From Rhodoplanes sp. Z2-YC6860 (GTDB lineage: Bacteria; Pseudomonadota; Alphaproteobacteria; Rhizobiales; Xanthobacteraceae), in NCBI RefSeq assembly GCF_001579845.1, contig NZ_CP007440.1, positions 1,302,001 to 1,366,000 on the forward strand: 64,000 bases of DNA. The letters run 5' to 3'. Every line of letters starts with the position of its first letter. Position 1 is the stretch's first letter. This document shows positions 6,302 through 28,670 of this stretch, in pieces. Position numbers and translations under genes: made by a program. Under the pieces are notes generated by a model, which was not told the DNA's origin, did no database searches, and saw nothing but the letters and a program-made list of their open reading frames with translations.

Positions 6302-6406
6302 GTCATTCCGGGGCGCTCGCGAAGCGAGCGAACCCGGAATCCAGAAGCAAGATCGGTGTCTGCGACTGGATTCCGGGTTCGCGCCTTCGGCGCGCCCCGG
6401 AATGAC
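6302..6406. repeat. Interspersed palindromic repeat, family R2, copy 1
   Basis: An element of about 105 bases starting GTCATTCCGGGGC and ending GCCCCGGAATGAC, with inner arms AACCCGGAATCCAG / CTGGATTCCGGGTT. Its last bases overlap the ATG of the following gene. Further copies are at 7398 and 19325. Confidence 0.85.
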
Positions 6407-7397: not shown

Positions 7398-7500
7398 GTC
7401 ATTCCGGACGCCGCGAAGCGGCGATCCGGAATCCAGTTGAGAAGGTGGTGCTTGCATCTGGATTCCGGGTTCACGCGCTTCGCGCGTGCCCCGGAATGAC
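7398..7500. repeat. Interspersed palindromic repeat, family R2, copy 2
   Basis: Starts GTCATTCCGGACGCC and ends GTGCCCCGGAATGAC, in the gap between the Bug receptor and the NitT/TauT receptor. The inner arms keep pairing although their bases differ from copy 1. Confidence 0.85.
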
Positions 7501-8681: not shown

Positions 8682-10037
8682 ATGAAGCGTGCCAAGAAGA
8701 AGGTAGCGAAGAAGGCTGCGAAGCCCGCAGCCAAGAAGGTCGTAAAAGCCAAGGCGTTGAAGAAGACCGCGAAGAAGGCCGCTGCCGTCAAGAAGCCGGC
8801 CGTGAACAAGGGTTCTGGCCGGGCGAACGCCGACGGCACCGTGACCTGGAATTTCAAGCTGCTGTCTCATCACATGCTGGATGGTTTCGGCGGCATGGGC
8901 GAGGGCATGTCGCTGCAGATCGCTCCGGACGGCCGCCGCGTGATGTGGCTCGCCCACGAGAGCGCGCCGAAGAACTTCACGGCCGTGGACGTCTCTGACC
9001 CGCGCAAGCCGAAAGTGATCTGCCAGACCGATCTGCCGACCAGCCACATGCGCTCCAACTCGCTGGAGACCTGCGGGAACATCATGGCGGTGGCCTACCA
9101 GACCCAGAAGAAGGGCCAGCAGCCGGCCGGCATGGAGCTGTTCGACATCTCGAACCCGGAAAAGCCGCGCTCGATCTCGTTCTACGACTGCTCGGGCGAG
9201 CATTCGCGCGGCGTGCACCAGCTCTGGTTCTGCGACGGCGAGTACGTCCACATGGCGTCGAGCTCGCCGGACTTCGTGCCGTCGCATCCGCACGACGACC
9301 AGTTCTATCGCATCATCGATGTGCGCAATCCCTCGAAGCCCGAGGAAGTCGGCCGCTGGCACATGCCGGGCACCAAGCAGGGCGACAACGCGCCGCCGCC
9401 GCCGCGCCATCCGCTCGACAAGGGCTACCGCGCTCACAACTGCAACGTCTATCCGCAACGTCCGGACCGTTGCTACCTCGCCTATATCGACGGCGGCATG
9501 CACGTGCTCGACATCTCGGACAAGTCGCATCCCAAGCGCATCTCGTCCTGGACCAACTCGCCGCCTTACACCGGCTTCATGCACACCGTGGTGCCGCTGT
9601 TCGACCGCGGCCTGATGCTGGTCACCGACGAGTCGACCGAGAACAATGCCAAGGACTGGCCGAAGCTCGTGTGGATCCTCGATGCCCGCGACGAGACCAA
9701 CCTGGTCCCGATTGCGACCTGCCCGTTGCCCGACCACAAGCCCTATGCGGCGCGCGGCCGGTTCGGCGCCCACAACATCCACGAGAACGTGCCGCTGCCG
9801 ACCTGCTGGCAGAACGACCAGGTGGTGCTCGGCACCTTCTTCAACGGCGGGCTTCGGGCTTTCGACATCGCGAATCCGTACCAGCCGAAGGAGATCGGCA
9901 CCTTCGTGCCGCCGGCACCTCCCGGCGCGCCGACCGGCACCATCCAGCTCAATGACGTCTTCGTCGACGAGCGCGAGATCGTCTACACGGTCGACCGCCA
10001 CATCGGCGGCCTGTACTGCCTGGAGATGGATTTCTAG
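8682..10037 (+). CDS. LVIVD-repeat beta-propeller protein with a lysine/alanine-rich N-terminus
   Basis: 451 residues. The first 45 or so are a histone-H1-like Lys/Ala tail (KKVAKKAAKPAAKK). The rest is made of repeated blades of the type ...DISNPEKPRSIS..., ...DVRNPSKPEEVG..., ...DISDKSHPKRIS... and ...DIANPYQPKEIG..., the LVIVD signature, with several His/Asp clusters. No signal peptide is seen. It follows the ABC receptor by 143 bases and has its own strong ribosome site (GAGGGAGAGA). The function of such proteins is not well defined; some relate to selenium-binding-protein-like propellers. No enzymatic role is assigned. Confidence 0.8.
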   Translation: MKRAKKKVAKKAAKPAAKKVVKAKALKKTAKKAAAVKKPAVNKGSGRANADGTVTWNFKLLSHHMLDGFGGMGEGMSLQIAPDGRRVMWLAHESAPKNFTAVDVSDPRKPKVICQTDLPTSHMRSNSLETCGNIMAVAYQTQKKGQQPAGMELFDISNPEKPRSISFYDCSGEHSRGVHQLWFCDGEYVHMASSSPDFVPSHPHDDQFYRIIDVRNPSKPEEVGRWHMPGTKQGDNAPPPPRHPLDKGYRAHNCNVYPQRPDRCYLAYIDGGMHVLDISDKSHPKRISSWTNSPPYTGFMHTVVPLFDRGLMLVTDESTENNAKDWPKLVWILDARDETNLVPIATCPLPDHKPYAARGRFGAHNIHENVPLPTCWQNDQVVLGTFFNGGLRAFDIANPYQPKEIGTFVPPAPPGAPTGTIQLNDVFVDEREIVYTVDRHIGGLYCLEMDF

Positions 10038-10076
10038 TTTTTGTGTTGCGCGTTAGCGGCTCCGCTTGCTCGGCCA

Positions 10077-10130
10077 CCCTCCCCTGGAGGGGGAGGGTCG
10101 GCCGGCAAAGCCGGCCGGGGTGGGGTGATC
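10077..10130. repeat. Repeat R4, left copy, flanking the DUF559 gene
   Basis: CCCTCCCCTGGAGGGGGAGG followed by a GGCCGGC-aaa-GCCGGCC hairpin and GGGGTGGGGTGATC. An inverted copy lies at 10543-10597; only the middle hairpin differs, and it remains self-complementary. Confidence 0.85.
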
Positions 10131-10155
10131 CTTGCCAGCCTCACGGACTCCAATG

Positions 10156-10599
10156 ATGAAATTCCGGCGCGCAACCGCGCGCCGGCTTCGCGCCAACCAA
10201 ACGGGCGCGGAAACCGCCCTGTGGCGCGAACTTCACAAGATCGAAACTAAAGGCACGCATTTCCGCCGTCAGGTACCGATTGGCACTTACGTCGCCGACT
10301 TCGCTTGTCTGGCTTCCCGGCTTGTGATCGAACTGGATGGATCGCAGCACGGCGAAGAACCAACCAAGTCACAAGACGACGCGCGCACAAGCTGGCTTGA
10401 AGCCGAGGGTTATCGCGTGTTGCGTTTCTGGAACAACGATATCACGAACAATCTTGAAGGCGTGCTGGAGACGATCTATGCCGCGTTGTACGGATCGCGC
10501 GATGCAAATCCGACGCCGTTGAAACATCTGCGTAGCAAGAAAGATCACCCCACCCCGGCGCGCTTCGCGCGCCGACCCTCCCCCTCCAGGGGAGGGTGA
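10156..10599 (+). CDS. DUF559 endonuclease-domain protein (Vsr-like)
   Basis: 147 residues. The DUF559 core is visible: RRLRANQTGAETALWRELH, then the catalytic-type stretch FRRQVPIGTYVADFAC, LVIELDGSQH and a C-terminal VLRFWNNDI. This is the PD-(D/E)XK fold related to very-short-patch-repair nucleases. ATG 10153 is an equal alternative start. The last 17 residues (HPTPARFARRPSPSRGG) are simply translated from the right-hand R4 repeat, and the start lies 25 bases after the left R4 copy. The whole gene is therefore a cassette between inverted repeats. The biological role of DUF559 proteins is unknown. Confidence 0.85.
   Translation: MKFRRATARRLRANQTGAETALWRELHKIETKGTHFRRQVPIGTYVADFACLASRLVIELDGSQHGEEPTKSQDDARTSWLEAEGYRVLRFWNNDITNNLEGVLETIYAALYGSRDANPTPLKHLRSKKDHPTPARFARRPSPSRGG
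10543..10597. repeat. Repeat R4, right copy, inverted
   Basis: GATCACCCCACCCCGGCGCG to the end GGGGAGGGT, the reverse complement of the left copy except in the hairpin (GGCGCGC-gaa-GCGCGCC replaces GGCCGGC-aaa-GCCGGCC). It encodes the C-terminus and nearly the stop of the DUF559 gene. Confidence 0.85.
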
Positions 10600-10617
10600 A
10601 CCGCGCAAGCGGCAGGC

Positions 10618-11670
10618 ATGAGCGATACGATTTTCGATCTCTTCCCCTCTGCGTCGGCGAGCCGCTTTGGCCGCCGGCAGAAGCGTGCGCGGGGCTCGCG
10701 GCTGCCGGTGACCATTGTCACGGGTTTTCTTGGCGCCGGAAAAACCACGCTGGTGCGCCGCTTTCTCGAATCGCCCGAAGGCCGCGGCACCGCGCTGGTC
10801 GTCAACGAGTTCGGCTCCGAGGGCATCGACGACGCGTTGCTGCGCGAGAGCTCTGACGAGGTGACGCTTCTCGGCAACGGCTGCCTCTGCTGCAACACCC
10901 GCAGCGATCTGCAAATCGCATTGCGGCGGCTGATCGCCGACCGCGATCGCGGCAAGATCCCGCATTTCGACCGGGTGCTGATCGAAACCAGCGGGCTCGC
11001 CGATATCAGCCCGATCCTGCAAACCTTTTCCACCGATCGCGCACTCGGCGGTGAATTCGCCATCGAGGTGGTGCTGACCGTGGTCGACGCGGTATCGGGG
11101 CTGAAAAACCTTGAGCGCGCGCCCGAGGCGCGCAAGCAGGCGATCCTCGCCGACCGCATCGTGATCTCAAAATCGGATATCTCCGATATCAAGACCGTGA
11201 GGGCGCTGACCGCGCGGCTTGCCGAACTCAACCCGCGCGCCGTCACCGACGTTGCCGTGAGGGGCGACATCGATCCGAGGTGCCTGATCGACACCGGCCA
11301 GTCCGACGCGATCGAGCGTCATACCGGTTTTGTGGCGGAGGCCTCGCACAGCGACGACGTCACCAGCTTCGTCATGCGCAGCGACACGCCATGGAACTGG
11401 CCGGTGTTTCACCGCGCGATGGACACGCTGATCACCCTCCGCGGACCCGATCTTTTGCGCATCAAGGGCCTTCTGAACCTCGAGGGCAGCAAGGGGCCGG
11501 TGGTGTTCCAGGCGGTGCAGCATCTGATGCATCCGCCGGTCGAACTGTCGGCCTGGCCCGACGCCGACCACGCCAGCCGCGTGGTGTTCATCACCCGCGG
11601 CGTGACCGAGAAGCAGGTCCAAGACCTGTTCGCGGCTTGCAGCGCGCTGGGCTACGTCACCGGCGAATAG
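10618..11670 (+). CDS. CobW/COG0523 family GTP-binding metal chaperone
   Basis: 350 residues. The P-loop GFLGAGKT is at 36-43, the metal-binding motif GCLCCN is at about 88-93 (C89, C91, C92), a Walker B-like VLIETSG follows, and ISKSD stands for the base-specificity motif. The C-terminal CobW domain is present. Proteins of this family insert or traffic Zn, Co or Ni. There is no His-rich stretch, and no riboswitch or Zur-like operator was recognised upstream. The gene starts 19 bases after DUF559 and is followed at 74 bases by a Bug receptor, with no evident functional link to either. Confidence 0.9.
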   Translation: MSDTIFDLFPSASASRFGRRQKRARGSRLPVTIVTGFLGAGKTTLVRRFLESPEGRGTALVVNEFGSEGIDDALLRESSDEVTLLGNGCLCCNTRSDLQIALRRLIADRDRGKIPHFDRVLIETSGLADISPILQTFSTDRALGGEFAIEVVLTVVDAVSGLKNLERAPEARKQAILADRIVISKSDISDIKTVRALTARLAELNPRAVTDVAVRGDIDPRCLIDTGQSDAIERHTGFVAEASHSDDVTSFVMRSDTPWNWPVFHRAMDTLITLRGPDLLRIKGLLNLEGSKGPVVFQAVQHLMHPPVELSAWPDADHASRVVFITRGVTEKQVQDLFAACSALGYVTGE

Positions 11671-19324: not shown

Positions 19325-19425
19325 GTCATTCCGGGGCGCGCCGAAGGCGCGAACCCGGAATCCATGACCACGGCTGCGGAGTATCGATTCCGGGCTCACG
19401 CGTTGCGCGCATGCCCCGGAATGAC
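19325..19425. repeat. Interspersed palindromic repeat, family R2, copy 3
   Basis: Starts GTCATTCCGGGGCGCGCCG and ends ATGCCCCGGAATGAC, between the convergent ends of receptor 5 and the enoyl-CoA hydratase gene. It may serve as a bidirectional transcription end. Confidence 0.85.
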
Positions 19426-21540: not shown

Positions 21541-21696
21541 CGTGTCCCGGGCGCAGCGCAGCACGTAGCGAAGCGGAGTGATGCGCTGCAGACCCGGGAC
21601 CCCAGTTTCTTTCTTTTCGTGGACAGCAACCGGGGTCCCGGATCAGCGGTGCACCGTTCCGCTTCGCTCCACGCTGCACCGCATCCGGGACACGTG
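21541..21696. repeat. Interspersed palindromic repeat, family R1, copy 2
   Basis: Begins GTGTCCCGGGCGCAGCGCAG and ends ATCCGGGACACGTG. It fills the gap between the MetE-like gene and the convergent alkaline phosphatase gene. Confidence 0.85.
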
Positions 21697-26915: not shown

Positions 26916-27239
26916 CCCGTAAAGCCCGACAAGCCACTCTGTGTCGCATCGCAAACTCTCTCCCCACGTGTCCCGGGCACAGCGCAGCATGAGCGAAGCG
27001 AATGATGCGCTGTAGACCCGGGACCCCGATTTTTCTTTTCTGTCGCTGGCCAACCGGGGTCCCGGGTCTGCGGTGCATCATTCCGCGCTCACGCGCTTCA
27101 TGCTGCACCGCGCCCGGGACACGAGTGCGGTGGTTTGGGCAACAGCCCATCGCGCAACTTGAGCCGCTTCGTGGTTCATTTCGTCGCGCCTGTCCAATAA
27201 CCTTGCGCGCAACGATCAAAACCGCAGGGAGGACCGCCG
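26916..27239. other. Intergenic region between divergent permease and MetE-like genes
   Basis: 324 bases. Half is repeat R1 copy 3 (26966-27124). The remainder should hold divergent promoters; the only clear element is the ribosome site GGGAGGACCGCCG before ATG 27240. No small gene is supported. Confidence 0.5.
26966..27124. repeat. Interspersed palindromic repeat, family R1, copy 3
   Basis: Starts CACGTGTCCCGGGCACAGCG and ends GCGCCCGGGACACGAG, so the ends are inverted repeats of each other. The inner pair CCCCGAT / caACCGGGG is kept. Confidence 0.85.
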
Positions 27240-28436: not shown

Positions 28437-28461
28437 CGTTGTTGTGGAGCAGGCTCTCTCG

Positions 28462-28644
28462 ACACGTGTCCCGGGCACAGCGCAGCATGCAGCCATCAGC
28501 GCGTTTCCGCGCGTCTTCGACGCGCTATGGCGGAATGATGCGCTGTAGACCCGGGACCCCGCTTTCTTTCTTTTCAATTGCAGCCAACCGGGGTCCCGGG
28601 TCTGCGGTGCATCACTTCGTGCTGCACCGCGCCCGGGACACGTG
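28462..28644. repeat. Interspersed palindromic repeat, family R1, copy 4
   Basis: Starts CACGTGTCCCGGGCACAGCG and ends GCGCCCGGGACACGTG. It is the longest copy, with an extra segment near 28490-28530 (GCGTTTCCGCGCGTC). It lies between the MetE-like gene and the SAF-domain gene. Confidence 0.85.
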
Positions 28645-28670
28645 TTGCATCTTCATGCCATAAATCGTGC

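Follow-up and report, generated by a model that had tools for sequence, protein, structure and literature searches.

A DUF559 nuclease gene enclosed by inverted palindromic arms in Rhodoplanes sp. Z2-YC6860 suggests a possible new form of selfish DNA

The analysed window (the whole stretch of 64,000 nt) covers positions 1302001–1366000 of the single-contig, 8.19 Mb genome of Rhodoplanes sp. Z2-YC6860. A short DUF559 nuclease ORF on the plus strand (10132–10599; 155 aa from the TTG at 10132 or 148 aa from the ATG at 10153) lies between a conserved 451-aa ORF (8682–10037, plus strand), used for finding orthologous sites, and an ORF (10618–11670, plus strand) that from its sequence motifs we take to be a CobW-like GTPase and a relative of which stands downstream of the left-neighbour relatives at 56 of 69 loci. 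The nearest named relatives of a gene adjoining DUF559 belong to metagenome-assembled Xanthobacteraceae and other Hyphomicrobiales. The DUF559 ORF is enclosed by two 59-nt R4 arms, the left at 10075–10133 (plus strand) and the right at 10540–10598 (minus strand), which are inverted, 90% complementary and separated by 406 nt. Each arm is built of an outer hairpin (10076–10098 and 10575–10597), a middle hairpin (10099–10117 and 10556–10574) and an inward-pointing tail (10118–10128 and 10545–10555). The middle hairpins are unlike, CGGCCGGCAAAGCCGGCCG on the left and CGGCGCGCGAAGCGCGCCG on the right when read inward, and each is self-complementary. Folded as single-stranded DNA, 10076–10131 and 10543–10598 had z-scores of -4.5 and -6.5, respectively, each beating all 200 shuffles. 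The last codons of the ORF are inside the right arm, with the stop codon straddling the arm end; by eye, a proline-rich C-terminal tail read from a repeat was seen in many other DUF559 genes too. The sequence-only reading had described just this build (R4 copies in inverted orientation around the gene, differing yet self-complementary middle hairpins and a nuclease C-terminus encoded by the right copy), and it is confirmed on all three points. The inverted-flank score of the gene was 48, a score of 20 or more being reached by only 4 of the 2,440 windows placed at random in the fetched loci, and the arrangement is far beyond chance. The sole Rfam match within 9900–10800 up to E 1 was to a microRNA family, far under its gathering score.

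Two further repeat families were noticed in the window: a second palindromic one (GTGTCCCGGGCGC...GACCCGGGACCCC) at 63–193, 21541–21694, 26954–27127 and 28452–28648, and a third, inverted one (GTCATTCCGGGGCGC...GAACCCGGAATCCA) at 6302–6351, 6367–6406, 7451–7500 and 19325–19425.

The TTG form of the window protein matched PF04480 (DUF559) with E 6.3e-39, the domain spanning 10168–10488 (plus strand) and having, according to the profile match and the structure model (mean pLDDT 84), a Vsr/EDxHD-type fold. In Foldseek, the best structural match of the model was 3hrl, an endonuclease-like DUF559 relative, in agreement with the sequence profile (E 3.8e-40), followed by the homing endonuclease I-Bth0305I (3r3p_B, E 4.1e-05, TM (target) 0.78) and, lower-ranked, PvuRts1I (1.1e-3) and Vsr (1vsr, 2.5e-3). 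Judged from the model, the fold resembles that of I-Bth0305I and, more weakly, that of Vsr; the match to 1vsr supports the earlier suggestion of a Vsr-like fold, and the protein scored 14.7 bits against the Vsr family model TIGR00632, below the cut-off of 97.85. Twelve positions were invariant across 60 aligned DUF559 proteins, including E20, D49, E60, D62 and D75, with H66 kept in at least 90% of them. The conserved putative active site has the E, D, H, D order of the EDxHD homing endonucleases, with which DUF559 also shares the catalytic-domain fold (PMC3943268); E20, D49, H66 and D75 were matched to that core by order and recall, not by superposition. The same paper describes the EDxHD homing endonucleases as long, multi-domain proteins with extended targets, found mainly in phages. 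Unlike them, DUF559 is here one short domain between palindromes; phage relatives at E 1e-5 were found in 5 of 50,697 records. The dN/dS was 0.04–0.13 in five of the eight protein pairs tried, at dS above 1.5 (in the other three dS was saturated), and the DUF559 protein therefore appears, from its sequence comparisons, to be kept under purifying selection.

The R4 repeat is dispersed in the genome of the window. The 28-nt R4 pattern was found at 50 places with up to three mismatches and the outer hairpin in 52 copies with up to one mismatch, the reversed control giving 0 for both. Copies stand mostly in short inverted pairs without a gene: the 30 R4 loci that were read contained 19 distinct convergent pairs, 18 of them short (79–174 bp) and one bearing DUF559, with six loci lacking a partner by the criterion used. 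The spacer was 12–39 nt in the 17 gene-less pairs where it was readable. In the 18 readable pairs (the DUF559 pair included), the left and right middle hairpins were never identical and folded well, with a mean MFE of -12.2 vs. -6.5 for shuffles. R4 pairs of four other genomes had the same build, with one of 20 stretches (G055:2324963) being divergent instead. Two of the four single-domain DUF559 genes of the window genome score as enclosed; by eye, L001, the third, is flanked on either side by degenerate arms, whereas a pair stands on just one side of L002, the fourth. Few copies of such other arms occur elsewhere in this genome: three other places for the L004 type and one for the L001 type. 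A GGYGGTGC-like motif was seen just beyond the arms in several R4 pairs (e.g., L016, L030 and L033) and may be either a target preference or an element part. The idea that the sequences beyond the arms pair within each element was dropped: within R4 pairs their pairing was no better than between elements (6.26 vs. 5.87, p 0.20), and in 50 DUF559 elements the difference was weak (5.54 vs. 5.02, p 0.005). The idea that the unlike middle hairpins force a clover fold was rejected too, as the MFE fold of the two short pairs tried was a long hairpin.

Enclosure by inverted palindromic arms is common among the short DUF559 genes sampled. At a score of at least 18, a cut-off chosen after viewing the distribution (thresholds from 15 to 30 were also computed), 48 of the 58 testable loci of the order were enclosed, the window gene counted among the 48. 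This set was drawn from the 61 best-scoring DUF559 places in 61 genomes, of which 60 were used (all but G008:C47:95-409), and was completed by one gene of the long class; three of these 61 loci could not be tested because their flanks were too short. The long-class gene is one of the 10 misses, as is a gene lying in a 1013-aa frame. Among the matches listed, and with one gene per genome, 16 of 20 DUF559 genes of the class and 10 of 20 of the phylum outside the class were likewise enclosed, with four and 10 missing the cut-off, respectively; nine genomes (five of the class and four of other classes) were left out before fetching, one being partial and the rest of an already represented genus. 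Control genes in the same loci reached this score in 8/616 (order), 1/182 (class) and 0/167 (beyond) cases, or 9/965 in total, and random windows in 14/2440. ParE toxin genes of the same relatives were enclosed in none of 26 loci (30 were fetched, and four at contig ends went unscored), and neither was any of 20 members of a separate DUF559 class, mostly of ~400 aa. Hence the expectation that DUF559 genes of the order would mostly be flanked by arms held in this sample. The arms form a superfamily whose varieties tend to be specific to single genes, R4 being one of them. In 100 loci, a superfamily pattern occurred within 300 nt on the left of 64, on the right of 51 and on both sides of 42, and its density near DUF559 was ~64 times that elsewhere in the loci (2.52 vs. 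0.039 per kb). The nearest copy was oriented as expected in 58 of 64 cases on the left and in all 51 on the right.

The arms also vary together with the protein. Arm similarity rose with protein identity over the 74 enclosed genes compared (Mantel r 0.371, p 0.0002, uncorrected for host phylogeny). Pairs of genes from different genomes had common arms in 100% of cases at protein identities of at least 70% (n = 8) and in 76% at 60–70% (n = 59), dropping to 14% at 55–60% and 2–4% at 35–50%; paralogue pairs within one genome shared arms in 11% (n = 27). Among the 67 close pairs (at least 60% identity, different genomes), 57 had no common gene among three neighbours on either side, and a few of the remaining 10, such as G015/G008, look syntenic. 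Close pairs thus mostly share arms and mostly no neighbours, so that gene and arms tend to stay together at differing sites. Fifteen elements have a middle hairpin in each arm; there, the identity of the two arms was 97% in the outer hairpin and tail and 61% in the middle hairpin, the latter being less alike in 14 of the 15.

On the level of whole genomes, the arm superfamily tracks DUF559. Its pattern, designed from arms seen earlier at DUF559 loci (the count in 100 loci used a looser form), was counted in 299 Pseudomonadota genomes, with base composition controlled by the reversed pattern alone, which gave 0 in every genome. Of the 83 genomes whose DUF559 match had an E of 1e-20 or lower, 77 contained it, vs. 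17 of 216 others (Fisher p 8e-47, phylogeny ignored), leaving six genomes with strong DUF559 and no arm pattern and 17 with arms and no strong DUF559; 2461 of the 2732 copies fall in strongly DUF559-positive genomes. Within the 12 genera that have both states, the figures were 15/17 vs. 4/46 (within-genus permutation p 3.5e-5). In two genomes without a strong DUF559 match, the arms number 72 (G229) and 84 (G301), for which gene loss would be one explanation. R4 itself (up to one mismatch) was found in 17 of 61 genomes and in none of the 13 without any DUF559 match. This comparison is weak by itself because 12 of those 13 genomes belong to other families, R4 is missing from 31 of the 48 that do have a DUF559 match, and two of the 17 R4-bearing genomes (G012 and G026) have solely the long, unflanked DUF559 class. 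An R4 abundance independent of DUF559, which the sequence-only reading named as refuting, was not found, and the superfamily as a whole follows strong DUF559 matches, across the 299 genomes and also within genera.

Orthologous sites of the window locus are free of the gene. Relatives of the left neighbour were found at 69 loci, 56 of them with the right-neighbour relative downstream and 53 with a gap below 300 nt, and DUF559 was absent from all 56 sites holding both neighbours. Among the 12 such sites that were read, the gap was absent in two (L219 and L223) and 4–19 nt long in three; two held another arm pair belonging to the superfamily, one (L216) had 2.8 kb of other sequence, and three (L220, L224 and L225) a repeat of another family, which resembles the GTGTCCCGGGCGC...GACCCGGGACCCC repeat of the window and fills the intergenic site. 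In the last of the 12 (L269, 872–956), a lone R4 outer hairpin was observed in the intergenic site; it may be either an excision scar or a pre-insertion target. On Deinococcus plasmids of three species, the unit sits at three positions within one catabolic (hpa) cluster, namely the hpaB/oxidoreductase gap, the oxidoreductase/hpaE gap and after a VOC gene (L346, L350 and L352).

The gene-plus-hairpins unit recurs in many proteobacteria and at some loci of two other phyla; the Deinococcus, cyanobacterial and other named loci were scored without controls of their own. In Deinococcus, four loci were read of five matches; all four were enclosed, scoring between 20.5 and 53.5, and have their tails on the outer side. 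Two Pseudanabaena loci scored 61.5 and 41.5, the second inside a large ORF, and the remaining four cyanobacterial loci scored 17 (borderline), 14.5, 12 and 10 and were not enclosed at 18. At L353 and L355, cyanobacterial DUF559 genes stand amid CCCCCTAAATCCCCC-type repeats, which by their sequence look like AT-richer kin of the same arms. Of the first ten named loci, those of S. meliloti pSymB, D. proteolyticus and Sphingomonas are clearly enclosed, with Picosynechococcus borderline; those of E. coli, Shinella, three Azospirillum and Sinorhizobium M103 were not enclosed, several having one-sided hairpins. On S. meliloti pSymB, a palindromic pair element of ~130 bp with 19 matching places in that record flanks DUF559, so that here, as in one Pseudanabaena, the gene is between whole pairs and not within one; one pSymB arm element is apparently interrupted by an IS. 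In an E. coli record (L342, about 2505–2545), a superfamily arm was noticed ~160 nt past the DUF559 match, and the surrounding sequence has matches in 5,100 of 5,426 E. coli genomes, at a median of four places in those.

The closest known parallel is RAYT/REPIN, which (PMC3116915; see also PMC2817692) has in common with the DUF559 units an enzyme gene beside its own palindromes, gene/repeat co-variation, inverted doublets as the dispersed unit and several unlike gene-repeat pairs per genome. R4 agrees with this in its doublets (19 pairs among 30 loci) and in repeats that flank and co-vary with the gene, as seen from enclosure, identity correlation and fixed orientation. The two differ in the enzyme, a Y1 HUH transposase in RAYT and a Vsr/PD-(D/E)XK-type nuclease here, in the second, variable hairpin of R4-type arms and in the gene often being inside the doublet. 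The REP tag, GTAG (or CGTC) at one palindrome end according to PMC3733652, was not seen at the R4 outer hairpin, which begins with ACCC and ends with GGGT. A search of the window genome for a PF01797 (Y1) transposase, positive in 5 of 14 control genomes, gave no match, and RAYT was rejected as the mover of R4. The earlier likening to a RAYT/REPIN unit with a nuclease in place of the transposase stands for doublets, flanking and co-variation, and membership in RAYT/REPIN fails on the Y1 enzyme and the GTAG tag. RIME and other rhizobial palindromic intergenic elements (Osteras 1995, via PMC2573895) are likewise dispersed, repeated and of unknown function, and no link of RIME-type elements to DUF559 was found among the matches listed. 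Insertion sequences and MITEs go with a DDE-type transposase and a target-site duplication; the gene inside this unit is DUF559, and no such duplication was made out at the sites read. Among the matches listed, the open-licence literature contained no link of DUF559 to palindromic repeats.

Taken as arm, DUF559 nuclease gene and inverted arm, the unit is probably, in our judgement, a selfish element driven by the nuclease acting on its own arms. It would insert between genes, and its Vsr/EDxHD-type nuclease would recognise, in its own arms, the outer hairpin and the tail, and nick or cut them, or an empty target; the cut may then let repair or replication copy the unit and so drive its spread. 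Chiefly the short gene-less arm pairs would be copied in trans, so that one single-copy nuclease could maintain a miniature REPIN-like population, as we propose. Against this, we know of no strand-transfer activity of a hydrolytic nuclease.

The main rival invokes the same enzyme and the same DNA, with DUF559 as a homing-type gene: older pairs would be moved by something else, and the gene would invade them by cutting the spacer of gene-less pairs and being copied in via repair. We consider this unlikely but worth weighing, since the DUF559 gene occupies the place of the short 12–39-nt spacer and the next-closest structure after 3hrl is a homing endonuclease (3r3p), with Vsr (1vsr) lower. However, the mover of the pairs is then left unexplained in a genome without a Y1 transposase, the paralogues of one genome mostly have unlike arms, and the genes of S. 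meliloti pSymB and of one Pseudanabaena stand between whole pairs. A domesticated repair pair, in which DUF559 would repair mismatches in the manner of Vsr while the hairpins would be immobile regulatory or processing sites of its gene (terminators or attenuators), seems less probable still. Caulobacter VsrA, which shares the fold and has a DUF559 domain, is proposed to act in mismatch repair according to PMC12907096, whose main text contains neither "palindrom" nor "inverted" (0 occurrences each). Yet the arms occur in tens of copies in the window genome and others, often paired, the unit is absent from orthologous sites, and close relatives are mostly at different sites. That DUF559 is a mere passenger, caught between repeats inserted by another mechanism as both accumulate in variable regions, is already disfavoured and very improbable: IS elements do target REP sequences (PMC1525189) and one apparently lies within the pSymB arm element, but small accessory ParE genes (0/26) and control genes (9/965) are hardly ever enclosed, and the arms co-vary with the protein in fixed orientation.

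Returning to the selfish element driven by its nuclease, a wider claim, on which we are evenly divided, is that a very large superfamily of G-rich palindromes has in the DUF559 proteins its dedicated mobilising nucleases. In Pseudomonadota these palindromes read CCCTCYCC-loop-GGRGAGGG plus a GGGTGRGG tail, and Deinococcota and Cyanobacteriota have kin of them. Such units would make up a mobile-element class that is powered by a stand-alone hydrolytic nuclease of Vsr/EDxHD type and has REPIN-like non-autonomous members, parallel but unrelated to RAYT/REPIN. For many palindromic repeats of bacteria, no mover is known. If the reading is true, a large group of these repeats would find their missing partner in a one-domain nuclease family whose role is uncertain, and DUF559 would gain a testable substrate, its own flanking palindrome. 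Gene-plus-palindrome systems would then have arisen at least twice, from unrelated nucleases, and the unit of Rhodoplanes suggests a form of selfish DNA not recognised so far.
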